Below, in pieces: positions 1,387 through 26,374 of a DNA stretch of 42,783 nucleotides. Both the position numbers and the translations under genes were made by a program. The notes under the pieces were generated by a model. The model saw only the letters and a program-made list of their open reading frames with translations. It ran no database searches and had not been told where the DNA came from. The stretch is taken from IMG/VR virus record IMGVR_UViG_3300036782_000033, positions 1-42,783 of that record; one strand, 5' to 3'. Source of the stretch: a virus. Each line of letters starts with the position of its first letter. Positions within the stretch are counted from its first letter, which is position 1.

Positions 1387-3341
1387 TCTCCGAGCCGGCC
1401 GGCGATCCGTCGGCGCAATGGCAGGACATGGGGTCGCAGGTGCCGTCGTCGGTGCTGGACGCGACTCCCTGGCTCCGCGACACGAGCCTGGTGGCGTCGT
1501 CGATCGGCAATGCCGCGGCGACCTATGGCACGCTCGACGACTACGGGCGGGCGGTCTCGCCTCCGGAGGCGACGATTCCGGCGGCCGATGCAAACAAGCA
1601 ATACGGGATCCCGGGGCGGCTCTCGTTCGCGAACGACGTGGCGCCGTCGGTGGCGCAGGAGATGAATACCGCCAAGCACGCCGAGATGGTGCGCGAGGAC
1701 GCGGCGGCGCGGCGGCCTGGCGGGTTCGTCGCCGGCGCGGCCGGGTTCGGCGCTGGGACGGCGGCGATGCTGCTGGATCCGCTCGATATCGCGTCGCTGC
1801 TGGTTCCGGTGCTGCCTGAAGGCCGGATTGCGGAGGCTGTGGCGGGCGCTGGGCTGGAAGGGCTCGCTGGCCGCACCGTTGCGCGGGTTGCCGCAGGGGC
1901 TGGCTCTGGAGCCTTGCAGCAGGCCGCGCTGTCGGCTCCGCGCTATGCCCTGTCGGCGCAGGAGCAGGCGGATTACAGCGCCTCGGACGTGCTTTGGGAC
2001 ACGCTGTACGGCGGTCTCCTGGGCGGTGCGGCGCATGGTGGGCTGGGGGCGCTGCGCGAGGGCCTGGGCGGCACGGACGAGGTGACGCAGGCGTTCCTGC
2101 GGACGCGGCTCGGGCAGGTGATGGCGACCAGTCCGGACGCGCGGATGGGCGTGATGAACGCGGCGCTCGCGGCGGTGGCCGACGAGCGGCCGGTCGACGT
2201 CGAGGCGCTCGGCGAGCTGATGGCGGAGGGTAGGATTCCGCCGGAGACGGGTCTCCCGCCGGTGCCTGGCGAAGCGACGACGGCGCGCGCGACGCCATTC
2301 GAGCCGGAAAACGAGCCTCGGCGGCTGATTGAGTTCCTGCGGCAGCCGCAGACGATTGGCACCGGCCTCGATGCGCGGACCATCCCGGGCGGCCTCATCG
2401 ATGACGGTGGGGATATCAGCGCCATTATCGGCGGCTCAAAGGGTCGGCCGGGGCTGCTGAACGGCAACGGGCAGCGGCTGGACGATGCGACGCTGCGCGC
2501 CTGGCAGGCGGGCTATTTCCCGGAGCACTCCGAGCGGCCGGAGATCAATGATCTGCTGGACGCGATCCGCGACGACCACAACGGCGTGGCGCGCTATTCG
2601 ATGCATGATGCTGACGCGGTCTCGGCCTTCGAACAGTCGAAAGGCGCTAACGAGGAGATCCTGCGGCTGTCGGACGAGACTGGCATCTCGACGGCCAACA
2701 AGACGCGGGCGCAGTTTTTTGATGCCGTGGCCGACCATATGTCGGTCGAGGATGCGGCTCGCGAGGTCGAGGGCCTCGAGGAACAGCATGCGGAGATGTT
2801 TGCCGAGCTGGAGCATGAGGCGGCCGGCGATGTAGAAACGGAGCCGCGGTCGCTCGAGGAGCTGGAAAGTGAGCATCGACAGGCAGACGCTGCTGAAGCA
2901 GCGGGACAAGGCCGCGCGGCTGCGGGACGACCTGGATCAGCCGGCGGCGGTCCGGAAGCTGGCGAAGCGCTCGGTGGATACAGCGGACGCGCTGCTGGGG
3001 ATGCGGGACGCGCTGGACCGGAAAGCCTCGAGGAGCGCATCGCCGACAGCGAAACCGTAAGGCAGGCTGGCGGGGGTCTCCCGCACGATGAGGAGGCCAC
3101 ATCGGAGGCGGCCGAGCGGGCTGCGGCCGCGCCTCCGCAGAAGGCTGGCGTGGTGCCCCCGGAGATCCAGACGCACATCGACGAGCTGACGGACTCCCTG
3201 GCGCGGGCGGACGCGGCGGGGCTGCTTACGGCGGCCGATCGCGCGGAGATCCAGGCAAGCGACGGCATGCTCGGCCAGGCCATGCTGATCGGCCAGGGCG
3301 CCATGCAGGCGGCCTCGTGCATCGCTCGGGGGCTTTCCTGA
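1374..3341 (+). CDS. Internal virion protein (ejection protein), 655 aa
   Basis: Large soluble protein in the ejection-protein cluster, starting at GTG 1374, which overlaps the stop of the preceding virion gene. A Gly/Ala-rich hydrophobic stretch at about residues 115-230 could become membrane-associated; the C-terminal half is strongly charged, with Glu-rich helices around 470-560 that look like coiled coil. Its place between the transglycosylase-like protein and the LPD38-like protein suggests it is one of the proteins ejected with DNA, comparable in position to T7 gp15 or gp16. I see no catalytic motif and no clear sequence match, so the role is inferred from context. The stop overlaps the next start as TGATG. 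Confidence 0.75.
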   Translation: MAGLISEPAGDPSAQWQDMGSQVPSSVLDATPWLRDTSLVASSIGNAAATYGTLDDYGRAVSPPEATIPAADANKQYGIPGRLSFANDVAPSVAQEMNTAKHAEMVREDAAARRPGGFVAGAAGFGAGTAAMLLDPLDIASLLVPVLPEGRIAEAVAGAGLEGLAGRTVARVAAGAGSGALQQAALSAPRYALSAQEQADYSASDVLWDTLYGGLLGGAAHGGLGALREGLGGTDEVTQAFLRTRLGQVMATSPDARMGVMNAALAAVADERPVDVEALGELMAEGRIPPETGLPPVPGEATTARATPFEPENEPRRLIEFLRQPQTIGTGLDARTIPGGLIDDGGDISAIIGGSKGRPGLLNGNGQRLDDATLRAWQAGYFPEHSERPEINDLLDAIRDDHNGVARYSMHDADAVSAFEQSKGANEEILRLSDETGISTANKTRAQFFDAVADHMSVEDAAREVEGLEEQHAEMFAELEHEAAGDVETEPRSLEELESEHRQADAAEAAGQGRAAAGRPGSAGGGPEAGEALGGYSGRAAGDAGRAGPESLEERIADSETVRQAGGGLPHDEEATSEAAERAAAAPPQKAGVVPPEIQTHIDELTDSLARADAAGLLTAADRAEIQASDGMLGQAMLIGQGAMQAASCIARGLS

Positions 3342-6229
3342 TGGCAATGGGGAAGTGCATCGAGGAGGTGCGCGCGGCGCTCGGCGGTGATCCGCTGGCC
3401 GTCACCACGAAGGCGGCGCGGGAGCTGCTCGAGCGGGTCGAGGCGCGGGCCGGTGCGTTTGAGCGCTCGGGCATGGATCCGCTGGAGGCCACGGCGCGGG
3501 CTGGGCGCGAGGTTCTCGGCGAGGCGGAGGTCGCCGCGGCGATCGAAAAGCGAAATACCCTCCTCAACCTGCAAAAGCGGGTCGGCCGGCGCGAGGCGCT
3601 GGAGGTCAAGGCGAAGGCGCTGGGCGGCAAGCGCGGGGTGGACCTGGTGCGGGCGATCCGCAACCAGCTCGTGTCGATCAACACCTATCAGCCCGGGGTG
3701 CTCGGCGGCCGGCGCAGCGTCTCGGGCGACCGCGATACGGTGCATCTGCAGTATGTCGGGGGTGCGGTCCGCGAGCTGTCGAACGCGGGGTTGTTTCAGG
3801 CGGCGCGGAGCAACCAGATCGAGCGTCTCTGGGGCCGGGAGCTGTACGAATTGTCGAGGCGGGATGCGGGTCGGCCGTCACAGGTGGGCGTGACAGGCTC
3901 CGCGGAAGCTGGCAAAATCGCTGCGATACTGCACAAATACGCGAGTCTCGCGCGGAGCCAGGTCAATCGTGAAGGCGCATGGATCGGCGACTATGCTGGT
4001 TACATTACCAGAACGGCGCACAACGTCGACAAGATGCGTCGCGCTGGTTTCCAGTCTTGGGCGGACTTCGTTACGCCGCTACTGGATTTGGATCGTACTT
4101 TCCAAGGTCGCGCTGATCGCGACGGTGTGCTGCATAGCGTCTATAATGCACTGAGGTCGGGCGTCCATCTGTCGGACGCGGGCGGTGTTGGCGTCGAGGA
4201 GCCGCAGTTCACCGGTCCCGCCAATCTGGCGGAAAAGCTCTCCGAGCATCGCATCCTGATTTTCAAGGATGGCGAAACGTGGCTGGACTATCAAAACAGG
4301 TTCGGCAACGGCACGCTGCTCGAGCAGACAATGGAAAGTTTTCGGCGTGCTGCACAGGCGCGGGCGCTGATGGGTCGCTTTGGCACCAATCCGGAATTGG
4401 AATTTCAGCAGGACATCCGCTGGGCGAAAGAGCGGTTTCGCGATAGCAACCTCGAGGCGGTCGAGGAGCTGAACCGCAACGAAAAGTCGCTGCAAAATAT
4501 CTTCGACGAGATGAGCGGCACGGCGCATCGTCCTGCGAACGAGCTGCTTGCTAAGATCGGGTCTTACACGCGGCTCGACCAGACGATGGCGAAGCTCGGC
4601 GGTGTGGCGCTGACGCACATGTCGGCCGCGGTCTCCAAGGCGGCGCTGCTGCGCTATCACGGCGTGGGGTTGCTGGCCGGCTATAGCGATTTCCTGGCGG
4701 CGCCGTTCCGCAACATGAGCCGGGGCGTCGCCGGCCGCTGGGCCGACGAGATGCTGGCGGGGATGGAGGGGACCAATCGGGACATCATCTCCGGCTTCTC
4801 GCCGAACGATGCTCTGCCGGGGACGGCGTCGAAGCTGGCGAACCTGTATTTTCGGCTCAATGGGCTGACCTGGCTGCTGAACAAGCAGAAAGCCGGGGCC
4901 GAGTGGGTCATGAGTAGGCAGCTCGGCCGCGTGCTGGACATGGCGCATGCGGACCTGGCGCCGCCGACGCAGCGGCTGCTGGCGCAATATGGTATCTCGC
5001 CGGCGGAGTGGGACATGCTCCGCAAGGCGCCGGACCACGTGGCGATCGACGGCCGGCAGTTCCTCACGCCCGGGGCGGCGATGCGGGTTCCGGCCTCGGA
5101 GATCGCCGCGGATCTGCGGGCGAGGGGGGTACTCAAGGCCGAGCAGGGCGCGCTGCCGCTGCTGCCGCCGGTGGCGGCCGGGTCGGTCCGGTTCTTCCAC
5201 GGCGGCCAGCCCTACGAGGGCGGCTCGCGGTTCGTGACCGAAGATCGGGCATACGCGCAGGGCTACGCCAACAAGTCGCCCGGCGGCTTCGTGCACTATG
5301 TCGACGTGCCTCTGAACCATCCGGATCTGGCGAACGTGCCCAAGTCGTTCGATGATACCGGCACGAATATGCGTGCGCCATTCGTGCATTTCGACGCGCC
5401 GCCGAGCATCGCGAAGGGGCTGCGGCCGGTGGAGGAGATGTCGCCGGCGGCGACACTCGCGGTCGATCGCGCGCGGGACGACCTGGCGTTGAAGGTGCAC
5501 GGGATGTTCCGCGACCTGGCCGACCAGTCGGTGGTTACGCCGACGATCGAGGATCGGGCGGCGTTCACGCAGGGGCTGCGGCCTGGCACGGTCGGCGGCG
5601 AGGTGGCGCGGTTTATCGCGCAATTCAAAATGTGGCCGTTGGCCGCGGCGCGGCAGATGTGGGGCCGCGAGCTGTATGGCGGCCAGTCGATGGCCGGCAA
5701 GATGGCCGGCATGATGAATTTGGCGGTTGGGTCGATGCTGACTGGCTATGCCATCATGACGCTAAAGGGGCTGCTGAAAGGGCAAAACCCGCGGCCTCCT
5801 GACGCGAAGGCTGCGCTGGCTGGCATGATGCAAGGCGGCGGCTTCGGGATCTTCGGCGACTATATGTTCGGCGAGGTCAACCGGTTCGGCCAGGGGCTCA
5901 CCGACACGATCGCCGGCCCGGTGCTCGGGGCGACGCTCAATAACGCATTCGATATGTTCAACCGGGCGAAAGCGTACGCGGAGGGCGACGAGAGCAAGCG
6001 GGGCATCGTCAAGGATCTGCTAGCGGACTCGGTCAAGCTCACCGTGGACAATGCGCCGTTTATCAATCTCAACCCGGCGCGACAGGCGCTGAATTACCTA
6101 TTTTTGCATTCGCTGCAGGAGTGGATCTCGCCGGGCTATCTGCAACGGCAGCAGAACGCGGCGAAGCGGCAACAGGGCATCACGTATTTTCTGTCTCCGC
6201 AGGCGCATCTTCATACCTTGGGACGCTAG
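3341..6229 (+). CDS. Polyvalent ejection protein with ADP-ribosyltransferase-like segment and LPD38-like C-terminus
   Basis: A 962-residue protein. ATG 3341 overlaps the previous stop as TGATG and is preferred to the in-frame GTG at 3317. The last 250 residues, with patterns such as FKMWPLAAARQ and GGGFGIFGDYMFG, resemble large polyvalent protein-associated domain 38 (LPD38), found in phage proteins that travel with the DNA into the host. At about residues 612-700 lies a compact module beginning RFFHGG, then a FVTEDRAYAQGYAN stretch and VHYVDVP; this His...Tyr pattern with a beta-strand start resembles the ART-like domains known from polyvalent proteins. The third catalytic position is uncertain. 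The block from about 3890 to 4530 is visibly less GC-rich than its flanks, suggesting mosaic exchange. The 3' end overlaps the convergent gene at 6180-6518 by 50 bp. Confidence 0.75.
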   Translation: MAMGKCIEEVRAALGGDPLAVTTKAARELLERVEARAGAFERSGMDPLEATARAGREVLGEAEVAAAIEKRNTLLNLQKRVGRREALEVKAKALGGKRGVDLVRAIRNQLVSINTYQPGVLGGRRSVSGDRDTVHLQYVGGAVRELSNAGLFQAARSNQIERLWGRELYELSRRDAGRPSQVGVTGSAEAGKIAAILHKYASLARSQVNREGAWIGDYAGYITRTAHNVDKMRRAGFQSWADFVTPLLDLDRTFQGRADRDGVLHSVYNALRSGVHLSDAGGVGVEEPQFTGPANLAEKLSEHRILIFKDGETWLDYQNRFGNGTLLEQTMESFRRAAQARALMGRFGTNPELEFQQDIRWAKERFRDSNLEAVEELNRNEKSLQNIFDEMSGTAHRPANELLAKIGSYTRLDQTMAKLGGVALTHMSAAVSKAALLRYHGVGLLAGYSDFLAAPFRNMSRGVAGRWADEMLAGMEGTNRDIISGFSPNDALPGTASKLANLYFRLNGLTWLLNKQKAGAEWVMSRQLGRVLDMAHADLAPPTQRLLAQYGISPAEWDMLRKAPDHVAIDGRQFLTPGAAMRVPASEIAADLRARGVLKAEQGALPLLPPVAAGSVRFFHGGQPYEGGSRFVTEDRAYAQGYANKSPGGFVHYVDVPLNHPDLANVPKSFDDTGTNMRAPFVHFDAPPSIAKGLRPVEEMSPAATLAVDRARDDLALKVHGMFRDLADQSVVTPTIEDRAAFTQGLRPGTVGGEVARFIAQFKMWPLAAARQMWGRELYGGQSMAGKMAGMMNLAVGSMLTGYAIMTLKGLLKGQNPRPPDAKAALAGMMQGGGFGIFGDYMFGEVNRFGQGLTDTIAGPVLGATLNNAFDMFNRAKAYAEGDESKRGIVKDLLADSVKLTVDNAPFINLNPARQALNYLFLHSLQEWISPGYLQRQQNAAKRQQGITYFLSPQAHLHTLGR

Positions 6230-16278: not shown

Positions 16279-17013
16279 ATGCCGCTTCCGCGCCATCGGG
16301 TTGCCGCTGGCGGGCCTCCTTCGGCGCCGTCCTTCGTTGCATATTTCCGGGTTTCGACGGAACAGCAAGGCCACAGCGGTCTCGGGTTGGCCGCGCAACG
16401 GGCGGCGGTCGGCAAATATGCTGCGTCGTTAGACGGTGTTGTCGTTGCGGAGTACGAGGAGGTCGAGTCCGGCAAGCGCGCCGATCGGCCGCAGCTCGCG
16501 CTGGCGCTGGCGGCGTGTCGGGCAAGGCGGGCTGTATTGGTGATCGCCAAGCTCGACCGACTGGCTCGCAACACCGCGTTTTTGCTCTCGATCGTCGAGG
16601 GCACCGGCGAGCAGGGCGTCGTGTTCTGCGACCTGCCGCAGGTGCCTCCCGGTGCAATGGGCAAGTTCTTTATCACCTTGATGGCGGCGGTTGCGGAGCT
16701 GGAGGCGGGGCTCATTTCGCAACGCACGAAAGCGGCGCTCGCGGCGGCGAAAGCACGCGGCGTGAAGCTCGGCAGTCCGCGGCTGTCGGTGGGGTTCGAC
16801 TCAAGCGCCAGCCGTGCTGGGCGCATGGCGCAGACGGCTCGGTCGAAAGCGCACGCCGCGGATGTCCTACCGTATATCGAGGCGGCTCGAGGCGCGGGGG
16901 CTGCATCGCTCCGCCAGGTCGCCGCGGCTTTGACGGCTCGCGGGATCCAACCACCGTCCGGGGGCGACGCGTGGCATGCCAGCCAGGTGCAGCGGATAGT
17001 GCGCCGCGCGTGA
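16279..17013 (+). CDS. Serine recombinase (resolvase/invertase family), 244 aa
   Basis: The catalytic core begins with VAYFRVSTEQQGHSGLGL, placing the nucleophile at Ser26 and the usual Arg24 just before it. KLDRLARN (about residues 95-102) is the second active-site motif, and ELEAGLISQRTKAALAAAKARG is the long E helix with dimer and DNA contacts. The C-terminus (SLRQVAAALTARGIQPPSG ... SQVQRIVRR) is a small helix-turn-helix domain. The length is that of resolvases or invertases, without the zinc and coiled-coil domains of large serine integrases. It may resolve genome multimers, invert DNA, or integrate the phage; no att pair was identified. Confidence 0.85.
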   Translation: MPLPRHRVAAGGPPSAPSFVAYFRVSTEQQGHSGLGLAAQRAAVGKYAASLDGVVVAEYEEVESGKRADRPQLALALAACRARRAVLVIAKLDRLARNTAFLLSIVEGTGEQGVVFCDLPQVPPGAMGKFFITLMAAVAELEAGLISQRTKAALAAAKARGVKLGSPRLSVGFDSSASRAGRMAQTARSKAHAADVLPYIEAARGAGAASLRQVAAALTARGIQPPSGGDAWHASQVQRIVRRA

Positions 17014-19214: not shown

Positions 19215-19288
19215 TTTGCGGGTTGCTCCCTGTTGGTAGCGGCCGACCGTAGCTGTTTGAAATGCCGCACACAATCAAAGGTCAATCA

Positions 19289-20734
19289 ATGCCGCGTGGT
19301 GGCGCACGTCCCGGGGCTGGTCGGAAGCCGGCTGTTCCGGGGTTTCCGGACACGCAAAAAGGGGCGCTTGCCGTCCGGTATGTTCCGATCTCCTCGGTCG
19401 TGCCTGCGGCTCGCAATGCGCGCACGCACTCGCCGGACCAGGTGCGGCAGATTGCTCGGGCGATAGCGGTGCGCTGGACCAATCCGATCCTGGTCGATGA
19501 GCGCACGGTCGTCATCGCGGGCCACGGCCGGCTCGAGGCGGCCAAGCTGCTTGGCCTGGCGGAAGTGCCGACGATCGCGCTGGTCGGCCTCACGGAGCCG
19601 CAGAAGCGGGCGCTGGCGCTGGCCGATAACCAACTGGCTCTCAATGCCGGCTGGGACGACGAGCTGCTGCGGCTCGAGCTGGCCGAGCTGGGCGCGGAGG
19701 GGTTCGATATCTCGCTGATCGGGTTCGGCGACGTTGAGTTGGCCGGGATCCTGGCGGACCGGACGGAGGGTCTCACCGATCCGGACGATGCTCCGCCGCT
19801 GCCGGCCGCGCCGGTATCGGTGCTGGGTGACGTGTGGCTGCTGGGGCGGCATCGTCTTTGCTGCGGCGATTGCACTGATGCTGCCGTGGTGGCGCGGGCG
19901 CTGAACGGAGCCAAGCCGCCGCTGATGGTCACGGACCAGCCTTGGGGCGTTGGCTACGCGGCGGCGTCTCGTGCGAGGGCGCGGGCGGTGGGCGCGGTCG
20001 CGAATGACGATCGTGTCGACTGGCGGTCTGCCTGGGTGCTGTTCCCCGGGGACGTTGCTTACGTCTGGCATCCTGGGACGCTCGTCGCTGCTGTGGCGCG
20101 GTCGCTCGCGGAGGCGGGGCTCGAGCTTCGCGCGCATATCGTATGGGTCAAGGCGCGGTCGATCATTGGCCGCGGCAACTATCACTTTCAGCACGAGCCG
20201 GCGCTGTACGTGGCGCGGGATGGTGTGGATGAGCATTGGCACTTCGTCGAGGAGCACGAGCTTGCCGGCTATGCCGTTCGCGAAGGCGCGACAGCGCATT
20301 ATGTCGGTGGTCGGCGACAGTCCACGGTGTGGGAGCTTGAACACCGAGCGTCGGAAACCGGTCACTCGACGCAAAAGCCGGTGGAGTGCATGCGTCGGCC
20401 GATCTGCAATAACAGCGTCGCCGGCGAGGCCGTTTATGATCCGTTTGTGGGCTCGGGCACCACGCTGATTGCCGGCGAGATGACCGGTCGCGTGATCCAC
20501 GCCATCGAGATCGAGCCGGGTTATGTCGATGTTGGGGTGCTGCGCTGGCAAGCGTTCACCGGGCGGCAAGCTACTCTGGAGTCCAATGGTCAAACATTTG
20601 AAGCCGTCCAAGCGGCCCGCGCGCCCAAAGAGCACGGCGAAGCCTCGGCCGTCGCGCACGCCCGCGCCAAGTCGGCGAGCAAAGCCGGCGCCGCACGGAG
20701 AGTCCCTGTCGCCGGCAGAGTCCGCGCCGCTTAA
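19289..20734 (+). CDS. ParB-like nuclease domain fused to DNA (adenine/cytosine-N4) methyltransferase, 481 aa
   Basis: ATG 19289 is preferred (AAAGG upstream) to the in-frame ATG at 19262. Residues 30-140 are ParB/Srx-like (VVPAARNARTHSPDQVRQIARAI, VIAGHGRLEAAKLLG, VGLTEPQKRALALADNQLAL). From about 180 comes an amino-methyltransferase with motif IV before the SAM-binding motif (DPFVGSGTT, residues 384-392), the beta-class order. Motif IV, normally (D/N/S)PP(Y/F/W), reads TDQPWG at residues 215-220, so its second position is Gln. Such fusions are common in phages and may modify phage DNA against restriction or alter host epigenetics. They lie just upstream of the terminase genes. The target site cannot be read from sequence. 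Confidence 0.8.
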   Translation: MPRGGARPGAGRKPAVPGFPDTQKGALAVRYVPISSVVPAARNARTHSPDQVRQIARAIAVRWTNPILVDERTVVIAGHGRLEAAKLLGLAEVPTIALVGLTEPQKRALALADNQLALNAGWDDELLRLELAELGAEGFDISLIGFGDVELAGILADRTEGLTDPDDAPPLPAAPVSVLGDVWLLGRHRLCCGDCTDAAVVARALNGAKPPLMVTDQPWGVGYAAASRARARAVGAVANDDRVDWRSAWVLFPGDVAYVWHPGTLVAAVARSLAEAGLELRAHIVWVKARSIIGRGNYHFQHEPALYVARDGVDEHWHFVEEHELAGYAVREGATAHYVGGRRQSTVWELEHRASETGHSTQKPVECMRRPICNNSVAGEAVYDPFVGSGTTLIAGEMTGRVIHAIEIEPGYVDVGVLRWQAFTGRQATLESNGQTFEAVQAARAPKEHGEASAVAHARAKSASKAGAARRVPVAGRVRAA

Positions 20735-21206
20735 CCCCACGCCGAACGTCGGCGGTCGGCCGCCGGTCGCGATCGATCCGGGTCAGGTGGAGCGTGCGGC
20801 GACAATCGGCTGCACGATGGATGAGATCGCGGCGCTGCTGAGTGTCGGCCGGACGACGCTCTATGAGCGCATGGAGTCGGACGAGGCGCTGAAGGCGGCG
20901 ATGGAAAAGGGGCGCGGCAGCGGTCGCGCGACGCTGCGGCGGCTGCAATGGCAGAAGGCGAGTGCGGGCTCCGACACGATGTTGATCTGGCTCGGCAAGC
21001 AGATGCTCGGGCAAAAGGACCATGCGACGGTCGACGGTGAGTTCGCGGTGAACATCAAAACGATGCCGGATGAGCGTCTCAACCGTCGACTCGCTGAGCT
21101 ACTCGGAAAAGCTGGAGCTGCTGGAGCTGCTCGAGGAGCAGGCTCGCCGGACGGCTCGGCGGAAATTGTGGAGCTACTACCCGGAGGACGGTCCGCTACG
21201 GCGTGA
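20586..21206 (+). CDS. Terminase small subunit, 206 aa
   Basis: ATG 20586 is chosen; the methyltransferase ends at 20734, giving a 149-bp overlap in different frames. The N-terminal 50 residues are very basic (KPSKRPARPKSTAKPRPSR). At about 60-120 lies an HTH (QVERAATIGCTMDEIAALLSVG followed by RTTLYERMESDEAL), as in TerS proteins that recognise pac or cos DNA, then GRATLRRLQWQKA and MLIWLGKQMLGQKD, typical of this family. It delivers DNA to the ATPase subunit. The C-terminus overlaps the large subunit gene by 137 bp. Confidence 0.8.
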   Translation: MVKHLKPSKRPARPKSTAKPRPSRTPAPSRRAKPAPHGESLSPAESAPLNPTPNVGGRPPVAIDPGQVERAATIGCTMDEIAALLSVGRTTLYERMESDEALKAAMEKGRGSGRATLRRLQWQKASAGSDTMLIWLGKQMLGQKDHATVDGEFAVNIKTMPDERLNRRLAELLGKAGAAGAARGAGSPDGSAEIVELLPGGRSATA

Positions 21207-21816
21207 ACTCTACGCGCGGCATATGGAGATGTTCGCGGCCGGCGCCGAGCATCGCGAGCGTCTCATGTTGGCGGCCAACCGCATCGGTAAGACGGAGGGC
21301 GTCGGCGGCTACGAGAGCACGCTGCACCTGACCGGGCTCTATCCCGCCTGGTGGGTTGGCAAGCGGTTCGATCATCCCGTGCAGTGGTGGGCGGCTGGGC
21401 GCACCAATGAAACGACGCGCGATATCGTGCAAGCCAAGTTGTTTGGTAAAGTTGAGTTTGCGGGCGGTCGGAAGGGTGTGTCGGGAACGGGTCTCGTTCC
21501 CGCTGAAACTATCGGCGACGTGCACTGGAAGTCGGGCGTGCCGGATCTGATCGACACGGTGAGCGTCAAGCATGTCTCGGGCGGTCTGTCGGTGCTGGGC
21601 CTCAAGAGCTACCAGCAAGGCAGGGGCAGTTTCGAAGGCACCGAGCAGGACGGGATCTGGCTCGACGAGGAGCCGCCGCTGGACGTCTACTCGGAGTGCC
21701 TGGTACGGACCATGACGACGGATGGCTGCCTGATCCTGACGTTTACGCCGCTCGAGGGCATGTCCGACGTGGTCATGCTGTTTCTTCAGGACGGCAAGCT
21801 GCCGACGGTGCAATGA
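21070..21816 (+). CDS. Terminase large subunit, ATPase domain polypeptide (split gene, part 1)
   Basis: Residues 1-248 cover the packaging ATPase: an N-terminal helix, RRELYARHMEMF, Walker A AANRIGKTEG (Lys74, Thr75), Walker B GIWLDEEPP (Asp199, Glu200) and the coupling region LTFTPLEGM. The frame stops at TGA 21814-21816, where homologous proteins continue directly into the nuclease domain. The nuclease half is encoded separately from 21920. All visible motifs are intact, so this looks like a functional split and not decay. Total length of the halves (about 509) equals a normal TerL. Confidence 0.85.
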   Translation: MSVSTVDSLSYSEKLELLELLEEQARRTARRKLWSYYPEDGPLRRELYARHMEMFAAGAEHRERLMLAANRIGKTEGVGGYESTLHLTGLYPAWWVGKRFDHPVQWWAAGRTNETTRDIVQAKLFGKVEFAGGRKGVSGTGLVPAETIGDVHWKSGVPDLIDTVSVKHVSGGLSVLGLKSYQQGRGSFEGTEQDGIWLDEEPPLDVYSECLVRTMTTDGCLILTFTPLEGMSDVVMLFLQDGKLPTVQ

Positions 21817-21923
21817 GCGTTGTTTGTTGGCTCTGGTTGGTTCTTGCCTGCGCGCTGTCCTTCGTGGCTGGCTGCGTGGTTGCCATCTGGACGCAGCCTG
21901 TCATCGATCGCCGGCGCCGGTGA
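21813..21923 (+). CDS. 36-residue membrane ORF inside the split terminase gene
   Basis: ATG 21813 overlaps the ATPase stop (ATGA), and the TGA at 21921-21923 overlaps the GTG of the nuclease half (GTGA). The protein is one membrane helix (WLWLVLACALSFVAGCVVAIW) with a positively charged tail (DRRRR), indicating N-out, C-in topology. There is no Shine-Dalgarno, so translation would depend on coupling. A short direct repeat TGAGC (21814-21818 and 21921-21925) borders the insertion. It may be a small holin-like or membrane-targeting protein, or merely a linker ORF. Confidence 0.55.
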   Translation: MSVVCWLWLVLACALSFVAGCVVAIWTQPVIDRRRR

Positions 21924-22705
21924 GCCGCTTCGTCGTTCAGGCAACTTGGGCTGACGCTCCCCATCTTACCGAGGAGGCGAAGGCCGAGCTGCGGGCGTCG
22001 ATCCCGCAATACCAGCTCGACGCGCGTTCCAAGGGTATTCCGCAGCTCGGCAGCGGCGCGATCTATCCCGTGCCGGAGAGCGATGTCACGGTGCAGCCGT
22101 TTCCGATCCCGGAGCATTGGCCGCGTGGTTATGCACTCGACGTGGGCTGGAACCGGACGGCGGCGGTTTGGGGCACGATGGATCGCGAGACCGATACGCT
22201 CTACCTCTACAATGAATATTACCGCGGCCAGGCGGAGCCGTCGGTGCATGCCGCTGCCATCCGGGCGCGCGGCGAGTGGATGATCGGGGTGATCGATCCT
22301 GCGGCGCGCGGGCGCAGCCAGAAAGACGGCTCGCAGCTTATGCAGGACTATACCGACCTGGGTTTGACATTAGTCAAGGCGGACAATTGGGTGGAAACCG
22401 GGCTCCTCGATGTGTGGCAACGGCTGAGCCTGGGGCGGCTGAAGGTGTTCTCGGTGCTGCAAAACTGGTTCATGGAGTATCGATTGTATCGGCGCGACGA
22501 GAAGGGCCGCGTTGTGAAAGTGCTGGACCACCTGATGGACACGACGCGCTACCTGGTGGTGAGCGGCATTGAGCTGATGGCGATTCCGCCGGACTATCTG
22601 AAGCGGTCCGGGCTGGTGATCCGCTCGGGAAACGACGTGATGCCGTCGGGCGACTACGATCCGTATGCGGGCATGGGTCTGCCGCTGCCGGGGAGGGGAC
22701 GATGA
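21920..22705 (+). CDS. Terminase large subunit, nuclease domain polypeptide (split gene, part 2)
   Basis: GTG 21920 gives 261 residues beginning SRFVVQATWADAPHLTEEAK, the sequence that normally follows the ATPase domain. The RNase H-fold nuclease has its first acidic residue in ALDVGWNRTA (Asp74) and its second in GVIDPAARGRS (Asp126), followed by DGSQLMQDYTDLG. The upstream open frame from 21824 has no TerL similarity before Ser21921-21923 region. No ribosome site is visible; initiation probably follows termination of the 36-residue ORF. It cuts concatemeric DNA during packaging, presumably after assembling with part 1. Confidence 0.8.
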   Translation: MSRFVVQATWADAPHLTEEAKAELRASIPQYQLDARSKGIPQLGSGAIYPVPESDVTVQPFPIPEHWPRGYALDVGWNRTAAVWGTMDRETDTLYLYNEYYRGQAEPSVHAAAIRARGEWMIGVIDPAARGRSQKDGSQLMQDYTDLGLTLVKADNWVETGLLDVWQRLSLGRLKVFSVLQNWFMEYRLYRRDEKGRVVKVLDHLMDTTRYLVVSGIELMAIPPDYLKRSGLVIRSGNDVMPSGDYDPYAGMGLPLPGRGR

Positions 22706-23085
22706 GCGCGGTAGCGGAGCATTTCGAGCGTCTGCAGGCGCACTTGGCGATGGGCCAGGTGCGCGCGGTAAGGCTGACGCGGCTGCTGGCGCTCGCTGTG
22801 GACGAGGACGGTCGGCCGTCCGTGTTTGTATTGCCGATGGCGCACTCGCTATTGTCGGCCTCGCTGATCCAGGCGAGCGATGCGGCGGCGGACGTTGGTA
22901 TCGAGCTGGGGGATATCCGCTGGACCGCGGTTGTGACGCTGCTGCACAACGCGGGGACGCATGTGCGCGGGATGTCCTGGCGTGAGGCGCTGTCGGTCGC
23001 GAAGCTGCTGCAGGGGCTGCAGGTTCGGGCGGCGCAGCTCCGGCAGCGGCGGTCGACCAGCGAGCCGCGCGTGAGGCTCAGCTGA
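22702..23085 (+). CDS. Hypothetical protein, 127 aa
   Basis: ATG 22702 overlaps the terminase stop (ATGA) and has GGGGAGGGG upstream. The protein is helical with a hydrophobic middle (MAHSLLSASLIQASDAAADV) and a WTAVVTLLHNAG segment. The C-terminus is basic (RAAQLRQRRST). Family not recognised; position between terminase and portal is typical for small head-assembly accessories. Confidence 0.65.
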   Translation: MSAVAEHFERLQAHLAMGQVRAVRLTRLLALAVDEDGRPSVFVLPMAHSLLSASLIQASDAAADVGIELGDIRWTAVVTLLHNAGTHVRGMSWREALSVAKLLQGLQVRAAQLRQRRSTSEPRVRLS

Positions 23086-24194: not shown

Positions 24195-24497
24195 GTGTCG
24201 CGCGGTCGCCCGGCGCGGCCTGTCGGTGAGGCGCCTAAAGCGGTGCTGAACGGCGAGGCGCCGGGCAATATCCCGTTTGAATGCGCGGCCGATCGGCGGC
24301 TGCATGGGCTGGCGGCGCCGCGGTATTGCGCTGTGTGCGGTCTCGGCCCGTGCCGCAGCGCGATCTGGACCGCGACGCCCGAGCTGCGCTGGTTTCGGCC
24401 GCCGCGCGGCGGTGATCACGACCTTGTCCTGCAACAGCGCTGGACCGGCTTTGGCCAGTCCGAGTGGCGCGACGTCCAGGTGGAAATGGCTGACTGA
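24195..24497 (+). CDS. Hypothetical protein, 100 aa
   Basis: Start at GTG 24195, three bases beyond the previous stop. The middle has a Cys cluster (ECAADRRLHGL ... CAVCGLGPC) that may bind zinc, followed by a Trp-rich C-terminal half (LRWFRPP, QRWTGFGQSEWRDV). Family not recognised. Its TGA overlaps the portal start (TGATG). Confidence 0.6.
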   Translation: MSRGRPARPVGEAPKAVLNGEAPGNIPFECAADRRLHGLAAPRYCAVCGLGPCRSAIWTATPELRWFRPPRGGDHDLVLQQRWTGFGQSEWRDVQVEMAD

Positions 24498-26374
24498 TGG
24501 CTGCGCCGTTCGCTGTCGCTCCCGCAAGTTCGTATCGTTCCCCGCCGGCTCAAAAGCCGGCGGTGCCGCAGCGCCGTGGCGGCGACGTTGTGCCTGGTCC
24601 GGCGTCGTGGTTTCAGCCGCGGCTCAAGAGCCCGGAGGTCATCAAGCTCGTCCAGCATATGGAGAGCCGGCTCATCGGGCTACGGACCGATCGGTATACC
24701 TGGTGGGTGCATTGGCGCGAGGTGGCTGAATACATCCTGCCGCGGCGCTATCGTTGGCTGGTCACGCCGAATGAGCTGAGCCGCGGCGTTCCGCTCAACC
24801 AGCACATCATCAACAACACGGGGAGCAAAAAAGCGCAGGATTGCGCTGCTGGTTTGAAAGAGGGCACGACGTCGTCCGGGCGGCCCTGGTTCAAGTTGAC
24901 CATCCCGGATATGGACGTCGCGGATACCTCGCCGGTCAAGCTGTGGCTGGACGAGGTGGAAAAGCGCATCCTGCGTGTGCTGGCTGGCTCCAACTATTAT
25001 AGCGCCAAGGCAACGCAATACTTCGACCTGGTCGTATTCGGCACGGCGCCGATGCTGATTTACGAAGACAGCACGGACGTCATTCGCTGCTTCAACCCGT
25101 GCGCGGGCGAGTACTACCTCGCGAACAGCGACGAGCTGCGGATCGATACCTTCTACCGCGAGATCACGATGACGGTCTCGCAGTTGGTGCAAAAGTTCCA
25201 ACTGGTGAATTGCTCCAACGGGGTGCAGCAGGCCTTTCGCAATGGCGGTGCTGCGCTCGGCCGGGAGATCAAGGTGTGCCATGCCATCGAGCCGAACGAC
25301 TCCCGGGTCGGCGCGAGGGTGCTGCCGGATCGGTTCGCTTCGCGCGAGGTGTATTGGGAGGCGGGCAACTACTCGCAGGGGGTGCTGTCGCTCAAAGGGT
25401 ATTTTGAGCAGCCGTTCTCGGCGCCGCGCTGGGATCTGGCGGCGAACGATGCGTATGGGCGTTCGCCGGGGATGGATGCGCTCGGGTCGATCAAGCAGCT
25501 CCAGCTCATGGAACGGCGCGCGGCGCAGGGCATCGACAAGCAGGTCAATCCGCCGCTGAAGGCGCACGTGTCGATGAAGAACCAGCCGGCGATCAATCTG
25601 CCGGGCGGGATCACCTTCGTGCCGGACATGACGGCGGCGGGCTCGGGCATTGCGCCGGTGTATGAGGTCAAGCCCGACCTGGCGGCGATGCACGAGGACC
25701 GGAAGGAGGTCGAGCAACGGATCTCCGACACGTTCTTCGGCAACCTCTGGCAGATGATCTCCAACCTGGAGCGGGACGTCACGGCGTTCCAGGTCGCGCG
25801 GATGCAGGAAGAAAAGCTGGTGCAGCTCGGGCCGGTGCTCGAGCGCAATCAGAACGAGTCGCTCGACCCGGATCTCAATCGGGTGTTCCAGATCATGGCG
25901 CGGCGCGGGATGCTGCCGCCGGCGCCGAAGGAGATCCACGGCTTTCCGGTGCAGATCCAGTATGTGTCGATGCTGGCGGTGGCGCAGCGGGCTGCCTCGA
26001 CGTCGGCGCTGGAGCAGCTTGTGGGCTTCATAGGCCATCTGCAGGCGGGCGACATCGCGACGGCGCAGGCGGGCGGTGCGGCGACCGCGTGGGACAACAT
26101 CGATCGGGACGAGATCGTCGACGAGTATGCTGATATGTTGGGCGTGTCGCCTCGGGTGATCCGGGCGACGATGCAGGTGGCGCAAATCCGGCAAGCGCGG
26201 GCGCAAGCCGTGGCGCAACAGCAGCAGCAGCAGCAACAAATGGCGATGCTGCAACAGGCTGGGGATAGCGCCAAGACGCTGAGCCAGACCGACGTGGGCG
26301 GCGGTCAGAACGCGCTGGCGGCGATGCTGGGCAATGCAGGGGGTGCGCCGGGTTCGATGGCGCAGGCGGCCTAG
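24497..26374 (+). CDS. Portal protein (head-tail connector, T7 gp8-like), 625 aa
   Basis: The length and motifs match podovirus head-tail connectors: WVHWREVAEYILPRR at the N-terminus, NQHIINNTGSKKAQDCAAGL, RPWFKLTI, YYSAKATQYFDLVVFGTAPM and RRAAQGIDKQVNPPL. It forms the dodecameric ring through which DNA enters and leaves and to which the tail attaches. The C-terminal 60 residues carry a poly-Gln tract (eight Gln after QAVA) and a Gly/Ala-rich tail, often disordered inside the head. The stop TAG at 26372-26374 shares CTAG with the stop of the convergent - gene. Confidence 0.92.
   Translation: MAAPFAVAPASSYRSPPAQKPAVPQRRGGDVVPGPASWFQPRLKSPEVIKLVQHMESRLIGLRTDRYTWWVHWREVAEYILPRRYRWLVTPNELSRGVPLNQHIINNTGSKKAQDCAAGLKEGTTSSGRPWFKLTIPDMDVADTSPVKLWLDEVEKRILRVLAGSNYYSAKATQYFDLVVFGTAPMLIYEDSTDVIRCFNPCAGEYYLANSDELRIDTFYREITMTVSQLVQKFQLVNCSNGVQQAFRNGGAALGREIKVCHAIEPNDSRVGARVLPDRFASREVYWEAGNYSQGVLSLKGYFEQPFSAPRWDLAANDAYGRSPGMDALGSIKQLQLMERRAAQGIDKQVNPPLKAHVSMKNQPAINLPGGITFVPDMTAAGSGIAPVYEVKPDLAAMHEDRKEVEQRISDTFFGNLWQMISNLERDVTAFQVARMQEEKLVQLGPVLERNQNESLDPDLNRVFQIMARRGMLPPAPKEIHGFPVQIQYVSMLAVAQRAASTSALEQLVGFIGHLQAGDIATAQAGGAATAWDNIDRDEIVDEYADMLGVSPRVIRATMQVAQIRQARAQAVAQQQQQQQQMAMLQQAGDSAKTLSQTDVGGGQNALAAMLGNAGGAPGSMAQAA

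Follow-up and report, generated by a model that had tools for sequence, protein, structure and literature searches.

Phage large terminase genes split between the ATPase core and the lid recur among podovirus-like relatives

The large terminase, TerL, serves as a phylogenetic marker and is regarded as a hallmark protein made in one chain, whereas in the phage genome studied here it is encoded by two ORFs, a split that recurs at the same place among the genome's relatives. We consider it probable that this podovirus-like phage makes a two-chain TerL through a coupled NTGA junction, that the underlying fission is recurrent, and that the small membrane ORF now lying between the two halves is a later insert.

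The window, by which we mean the whole IMG/VR virus record of 42,783 bp, carries both halves on its plus strand. Chain 1 (21070–21816; 248 aa, frame 1) matches Terminase_6N (PF03237, E 1.5e-12, above cut-off) and PHROG 31467 (E 1e-84), and has the Walker A and B motifs and catalytic glutamate of an ASCE ATPase core: Walker A, AANRIGKT, is at residues 68–75 and DEE at 199–201, and alignment with relatives shows A69–K74 and D199–E201 to be invariant or nearly so. Chain 2 (21920–22705; 261 aa, frame 2, with a GTG start at 21920) contains the lid, the linker and an RNase H-like nuclease with its acidic motifs; it matches Terminase_6C (PF17289, E 1.9e-5, above cut-off) and phrog_5653, its family profile matches the P22 nuclease 4dkw with E 9e-57, and the nuclease acids D74 and D203, together with the lid residue R36, are invariant among relatives. 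Rather than lying on a single polypeptide, the two domains are thus in ORFs of different frames with a stop between them. The 103 nt separating the chain 1 stop from the chain 2 start are covered by a hydrophobic single-pass ORF of 36 codons (21813–21923, plus strand, frame 3), which shares an NTGA overlap with each TerL ORF. Short direct repeats are present here (TGAGC at 21814 and 21921, CGGTG at 21806 and 21918), as are in-frame GTG codons at 21808 and 21920; the inserted segment (21814–21925, plus strand) covers 107 bp and, in addition, the second of the TGAGC copies, which are at 21814–21818 and 21921–21925. The coordinates, short repeats and matched GTG codons given in a first-pass annotation of the window proved correct on re-reading the sequence. 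The same annotation held that the internal starts have no Shine-Dalgarno; indeed, within the window no Shine-Dalgarno-like 4-mer was found upstream of the micro-ORF or nuclease starts, nor upstream of the ATPase start.

The surrounding genes on the plus strand are those of a packaging and head module, marked by a podovirus-type portal (head-tail connector) at 24497–26374 (PF12236, E 1e-131). A probable small terminase subunit at 20523–21206, whose start codon is uncertain, overlaps the start of chain 1 (phrog_309, E 3e-5 on 20601–21203), and the next operon gene in the ORF list (22702–23085) has an ATGA overlap with chain 2 and a Shine-Dalgarno-like sequence. Directly upstream of the terminase genes, at 19262–20734, lies a ParB-like domain fused to an N6/N4 DNA methylase. 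A serine recombinase (DNA invertase and integrase PHROGs) is encoded at 16279–17013; because of this, the phage may be temperate.

The first-pass annotation had chain 1 ending exactly where the nuclease begins, which proved wrong: it ends about 40 residues earlier, at the boundary between ASCE core and lid inside the ATPase domain. The lid subdomain occupies about the first 41 residues of chain 2, and no part of that chain before profile position 42 aligns with the P22 nuclease structure. The D6E large terminase (5oe8–5oee), by comparison, aligns to chain 2 from D6E chain position 199, upstream of the D6E lid residues Y213, M216 and R224 and linker 230–241 (PMC5727402), its chain numbering being apparently offset by three from that paper, to judge from matching residues; the invariant R36 of chain 2 falls opposite D6E R224. 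In the structure predicted for a fused relative (L075, pLDDT 85.8) the cut would lie in a loop, residues 246–259, upstream of the residues equivalent to D6E Y213–R224. Foldseek matched this model to the D6E, P22, T4 and HK97 terminases with low full-length TM-scores, probably owing to a different placement of the two domains. Chain 2 is like the P22 enzyme in its nuclease fold, by sequence and by structure model, and like D6E in its lid and linker, which align; unlike these one-chain enzymes, it is severed from its ASCE core. Because the break falls inside the ATPase domain, between core and lid, the "nuclease" chain is in fact lid, linker and nuclease, and the motor is probably complete only when this chain docks on the chain 1 core. 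The D6E lid touches the P-loop arginine; if that contact is valid here, ATP turnover would need both chains together.

By searching phages, plasmids, IMG/VR and bacterial genomes we collected 236 non-redundant loci that contain both halves. The gene is split at the same place in 95 and fused into one ORF in 141, a ratio that is not a prevalence, the loci having been picked as best-scoring. An essential gene thus occurs in two pieces where relatives have it continuous, and the arrangement, earlier thought singular, turns out to be shared once related phages are searched, as had been proposed. Among the split loci are 18 named bacterial genomes, for example Acetobacter musti, Roseomonas acroporae, Azospirillum, Halomonas and Sphingomonas, and one of the 18 is a closed Endozoicomonas plasmid on which the split terL is annotated as two CDS; in the GenBank phage MW202785 two CDS are already annotated "large terminase". 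The closest one-chain comparators, EBPR podovirus 1 gp39 (JF412294) and Chlorobiaceae phage CV-1-33 (MT192033), are of the same family, with nuclease halves 59–63% and ATPase halves 48–59% identical, and likewise have a small terminase upstream and a portal downstream; their TerL is a single continuous ORF. We found no report of a two-chain terL in the open-access papers searched, which does not prove absence.

Most split loci end their upstream chain at the same place, give or take a few residues, while the junctions themselves are diverse: NTGA overlaps (16 loci), starts that precede the stop by 5 nt, ATGCCTGA for instance (13), TAATG (10), and short and long gaps. The distance from ATPase stop to nuclease start ranges from −20 nt to 3.9 kb, in both −1 and +1 relative frames. 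Since NTGA, TAATG and ATGCCTGA junctions differ in frame, no single frameshift or error explains them. A tree of 212 ATPase halves requires at least 26 changes between split and fused states, 9 of them forced by starred branches, and the nuclease tree likewise gives 26; a careful tree of 72 rows requires at least 8, of which 5 are starred. These counts do not distinguish fission from refusion. The idea that fused genes are pre-adapted by carrying an internal ATG at the junction site was not supported (15 of 114, against 5–14 in controls). Ten close split pairs show purifying selection on both halves, dN being far smaller than dS (for example 0.10/1.37 and 0.10/1.24) and dS saturated in a few, which is consistent with pieces that reassemble into an active enzyme.

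The junction has also acquired other genes. On the 72-row tree the window belongs to a clade of seven rows, all split (support 95/87), of which three (L036, L073 and L236) have a bare NTGA overlap; these three and L038 share a single NTGAGC junction free of any insert. In a Roseomonas member of the clade (L074) the gap is exactly filled by an HNH endonuclease gene, and other inserts are found in L049, L261 and the window. The bare overlaps within the clade indicate that the 107-bp insert most likely arrived at a junction that was already NTGA-coupled, which bears out the first-pass suggestion of a secondary insertion into a coupled split gene. The micro-gene may or may not be mobile, as that annotation had raised; the genes that recur at the site are those for HNH endonucleases. 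The window has no homing endonuclease gene at the break, whereas six relatives carry an HNH endonuclease gene in the gap (L050, L067, L074, L107, L254 and L273), and in a seventh locus (L003) a 46-aa ORF in the gap, which shares 41% identity with the L254 endonuclease at the latter's AP2 end, may be read as an HNH/AP2 relic. Elsewhere the gap holds a Dam methylase (L271), a MotA/ExbB protein (L276) or an N4 gp49/Sf6 gene 66 protein with a beta-helix protein (L083), and some of the remaining gaps contain small ORFs. One ORF overlaps or abuts both neighbours in 13 of the 37 gaps of at least 60 nt, where shuffled interiors lead one to expect 2.9. Gap contents differ between close relatives: 16 against 551 nt in the pair L046/L050, and 405 against 2679 nt in two Azospirillum loci (L082/L083) whose ATPase halves are 92% identical.

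The order of events appears to differ among the HNH loci. L254 adjoins fused relatives, so insertion may have made the split there; L074 and L050 adjoin split relatives that have no HNH gene, so the split probably came first. The first residues of the nuclease are repeated at the start of the HNH ORFs of L107 and L074, a duplication of the nuclease 5′ end that is exact over 16 nt in L107 and visible at the protein level in L074; within the window insert no significant duplication of this kind was found. As a separate observation, L067 combines its split and HNH gene with two intein-like insertions in the ATPase half (2933–5554), one of them inside Walker A, all within one open frame.

The 36-codon ORF appears, on sequence evidence, to be a local insert without a detected relative. 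The first-pass view that a membrane peptide is integral to the split did not hold: the ORF is missing from relatives, tblastn in phages found no homologue (best E 8), and two degenerate DNA patterns gave 0 matches in IMG/VR. That the ORF is instead a real, selected membrane gene, lysis-related or a moron for instance, rather than passive filler, is a tentative proposal that would add to the two-chain reading. Its hydrophobicity (KD19 = 2.6) is reached by 0.2% of open shuffles, its codon score, about 1.8 sd above shuffles, weakly favours the frame, and L233 has another small hydrophobic ORF starting at the same junction; set against this are the missing relatives, sister loci that do without the ORF, and an open frame that is itself unremarkable, since 65–70% of shuffled inserts are open and the chance probability of an ORF tiling the insert is about 0.7. 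No HNH relic was seen in the other frames of the insert.

Could the two halves nevertheless yield one chain, or be no genuine pair at all? Translational bypassing, raised in the first-pass annotation, would have the ribosome hop from GTG 21808 to GTG 21920, and the matched codons are there, with a joined linker of the length seen in fused relatives. Siblings with a bare 4-nt overlap, however, need no hop, and with −1 and +1 frames and such a spread of distances a conserved recoding signal is unlikely. In contrast to bypassing of the T4 gene 60 type, the stop lies one codon beyond the take-off codon instead of adjacent to it, the segment's folding does not exceed that of shuffled sequences (z = −0.9), and relatives show no conservation; bypassing or frameshifting that rejoins the halves is most improbable. 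Removal of the insert by a small intron or intein is barely conceivable, even though vibriophage ICP1 (PMC10448857) and the gut Jug phages (PMC12363816) have terL genes with spliced group I introns, and L067 has its intein-like insertions. The intron-bearing terL genes resemble ours in being coded in pieces with homing endonucleases nearby, but they are spliced to give one TerL, whereas stop/start overlaps lead us to expect two chains here. No Rfam match, and hence no catalytic intron RNA, was found in the window or at the junction, an insert of 103–112 nt is short for a group I intron, bare-overlap siblings have nothing to splice, and halves in different frames with a stop between them cannot be the product of an intein.

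That the split is an artefact of assembly or sequencing, or the mark of a prophage in decay, is very doubtful. The window is a metagenomic-type record, some related loci (L064 and L039) look frameshifted, and some splits in MAGs could be sequencing errors or decayed prophages; yet the same split occurs in named isolate genomes and on a closed plasmid, both halves of split pairs are under purifying selection, and the window has intact catalytic motifs and tidy overlaps. A single 17-kb contig (IMGVR_UViG_3300043640_000418) carries two split terL copies, L038 and L064, the ATPase half of the second being frameshifted, and six near-identical contigs (L039–L044) have a gap of 91 nt in common, the nuclease ORF appearing frameshifted shortly after it begins.

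We therefore favour a large terminase made as two polypeptides, the ASCE core as chain 1 and the lid, linker and nuclease as chain 2, in keeping with the first-pass proposal of a two-chain terminase expressed through overlapping stop and start codons. The ancestral junction in the window clade was most likely a 4-nt NTGA overlap, from which chain 2 would be translated by termination-reinitiation after chain 1, by likeness to what has been suggested for T4 mobE (PMC2988022). The chains would then assemble, the chain 2 lid docking on the chain 1 P-loop to give one working motor subunit, much as two-chain assembly was shown for Aeh1 NrdA (PMC2988022). Fission at the loop would have happened many times by stop/start overlaps, and once or twice probably through insertion of an HNH homing-endonuclease gene. 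Since neither protein is interrupted by an insert at that point, an established junction would accept further genes; the 36-codon ORF, if expressed, would be one of these, starting and ending on NTGA overlaps that keep the chain of coupled starts unbroken.

Precedents for essential phage enzymes in pieces include Aeh1 nrdA, interrupted by the HNH endonuclease gene mobE, T4 topoisomerase with mobA, and the 43A/43B DNA polymerase (PMC2988022). Like the nrdA type, terL here is an essential enzyme gene in two pieces, predicted to be translated separately, with overlapping stop and start codons, and HNH homing endonuclease genes occupy the break in relatives. Unlike it, the split affects terL, recurs across many phages, mostly lacks an endonuclease and any detected intron, and has a site used by other genes as well; the nrdA pieces reassemble, and assembly of the terL pieces is predicted. 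Whether these loci represent a large podovirus-like class, in which every ATPase site would be completed in trans by a lid that couples ATP hydrolysis to DNA movement and is carried on the nuclease chain, fissions arose in parallel many times, and selfish and cargo genes find in the junction a protected place to land within the packaging gene, we judge to be evenly balanced.

In split phages, one half of TerL would be overlooked or wrongly named by annotation pipelines. The repeated natural cut between core and lid offers material for asking how ATP hydrolysis is coupled to lid and nuclease, whether the two chains can differ in stoichiometry, and why fission is tolerated there. Here, too, an essential gene has come to receive inserted genes, HNH endonucleases among them.

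Free reassortment of halves in split phages is not claimed: the distance correlation between halves is 0.11 in split against 0.75 in fused loci, the low value stems mostly from a few nuclease-class exchanges, and within one class the figures are 0.42 and 0.58. The two nuclease classes are about 40–45% identical and differ in their second motif, DPA in one and WPHDG in the other. In L034–L066 closely related ATPase halves, 67–74% identical, are paired with the two different nuclease classes, which points to exchange of the downstream half.
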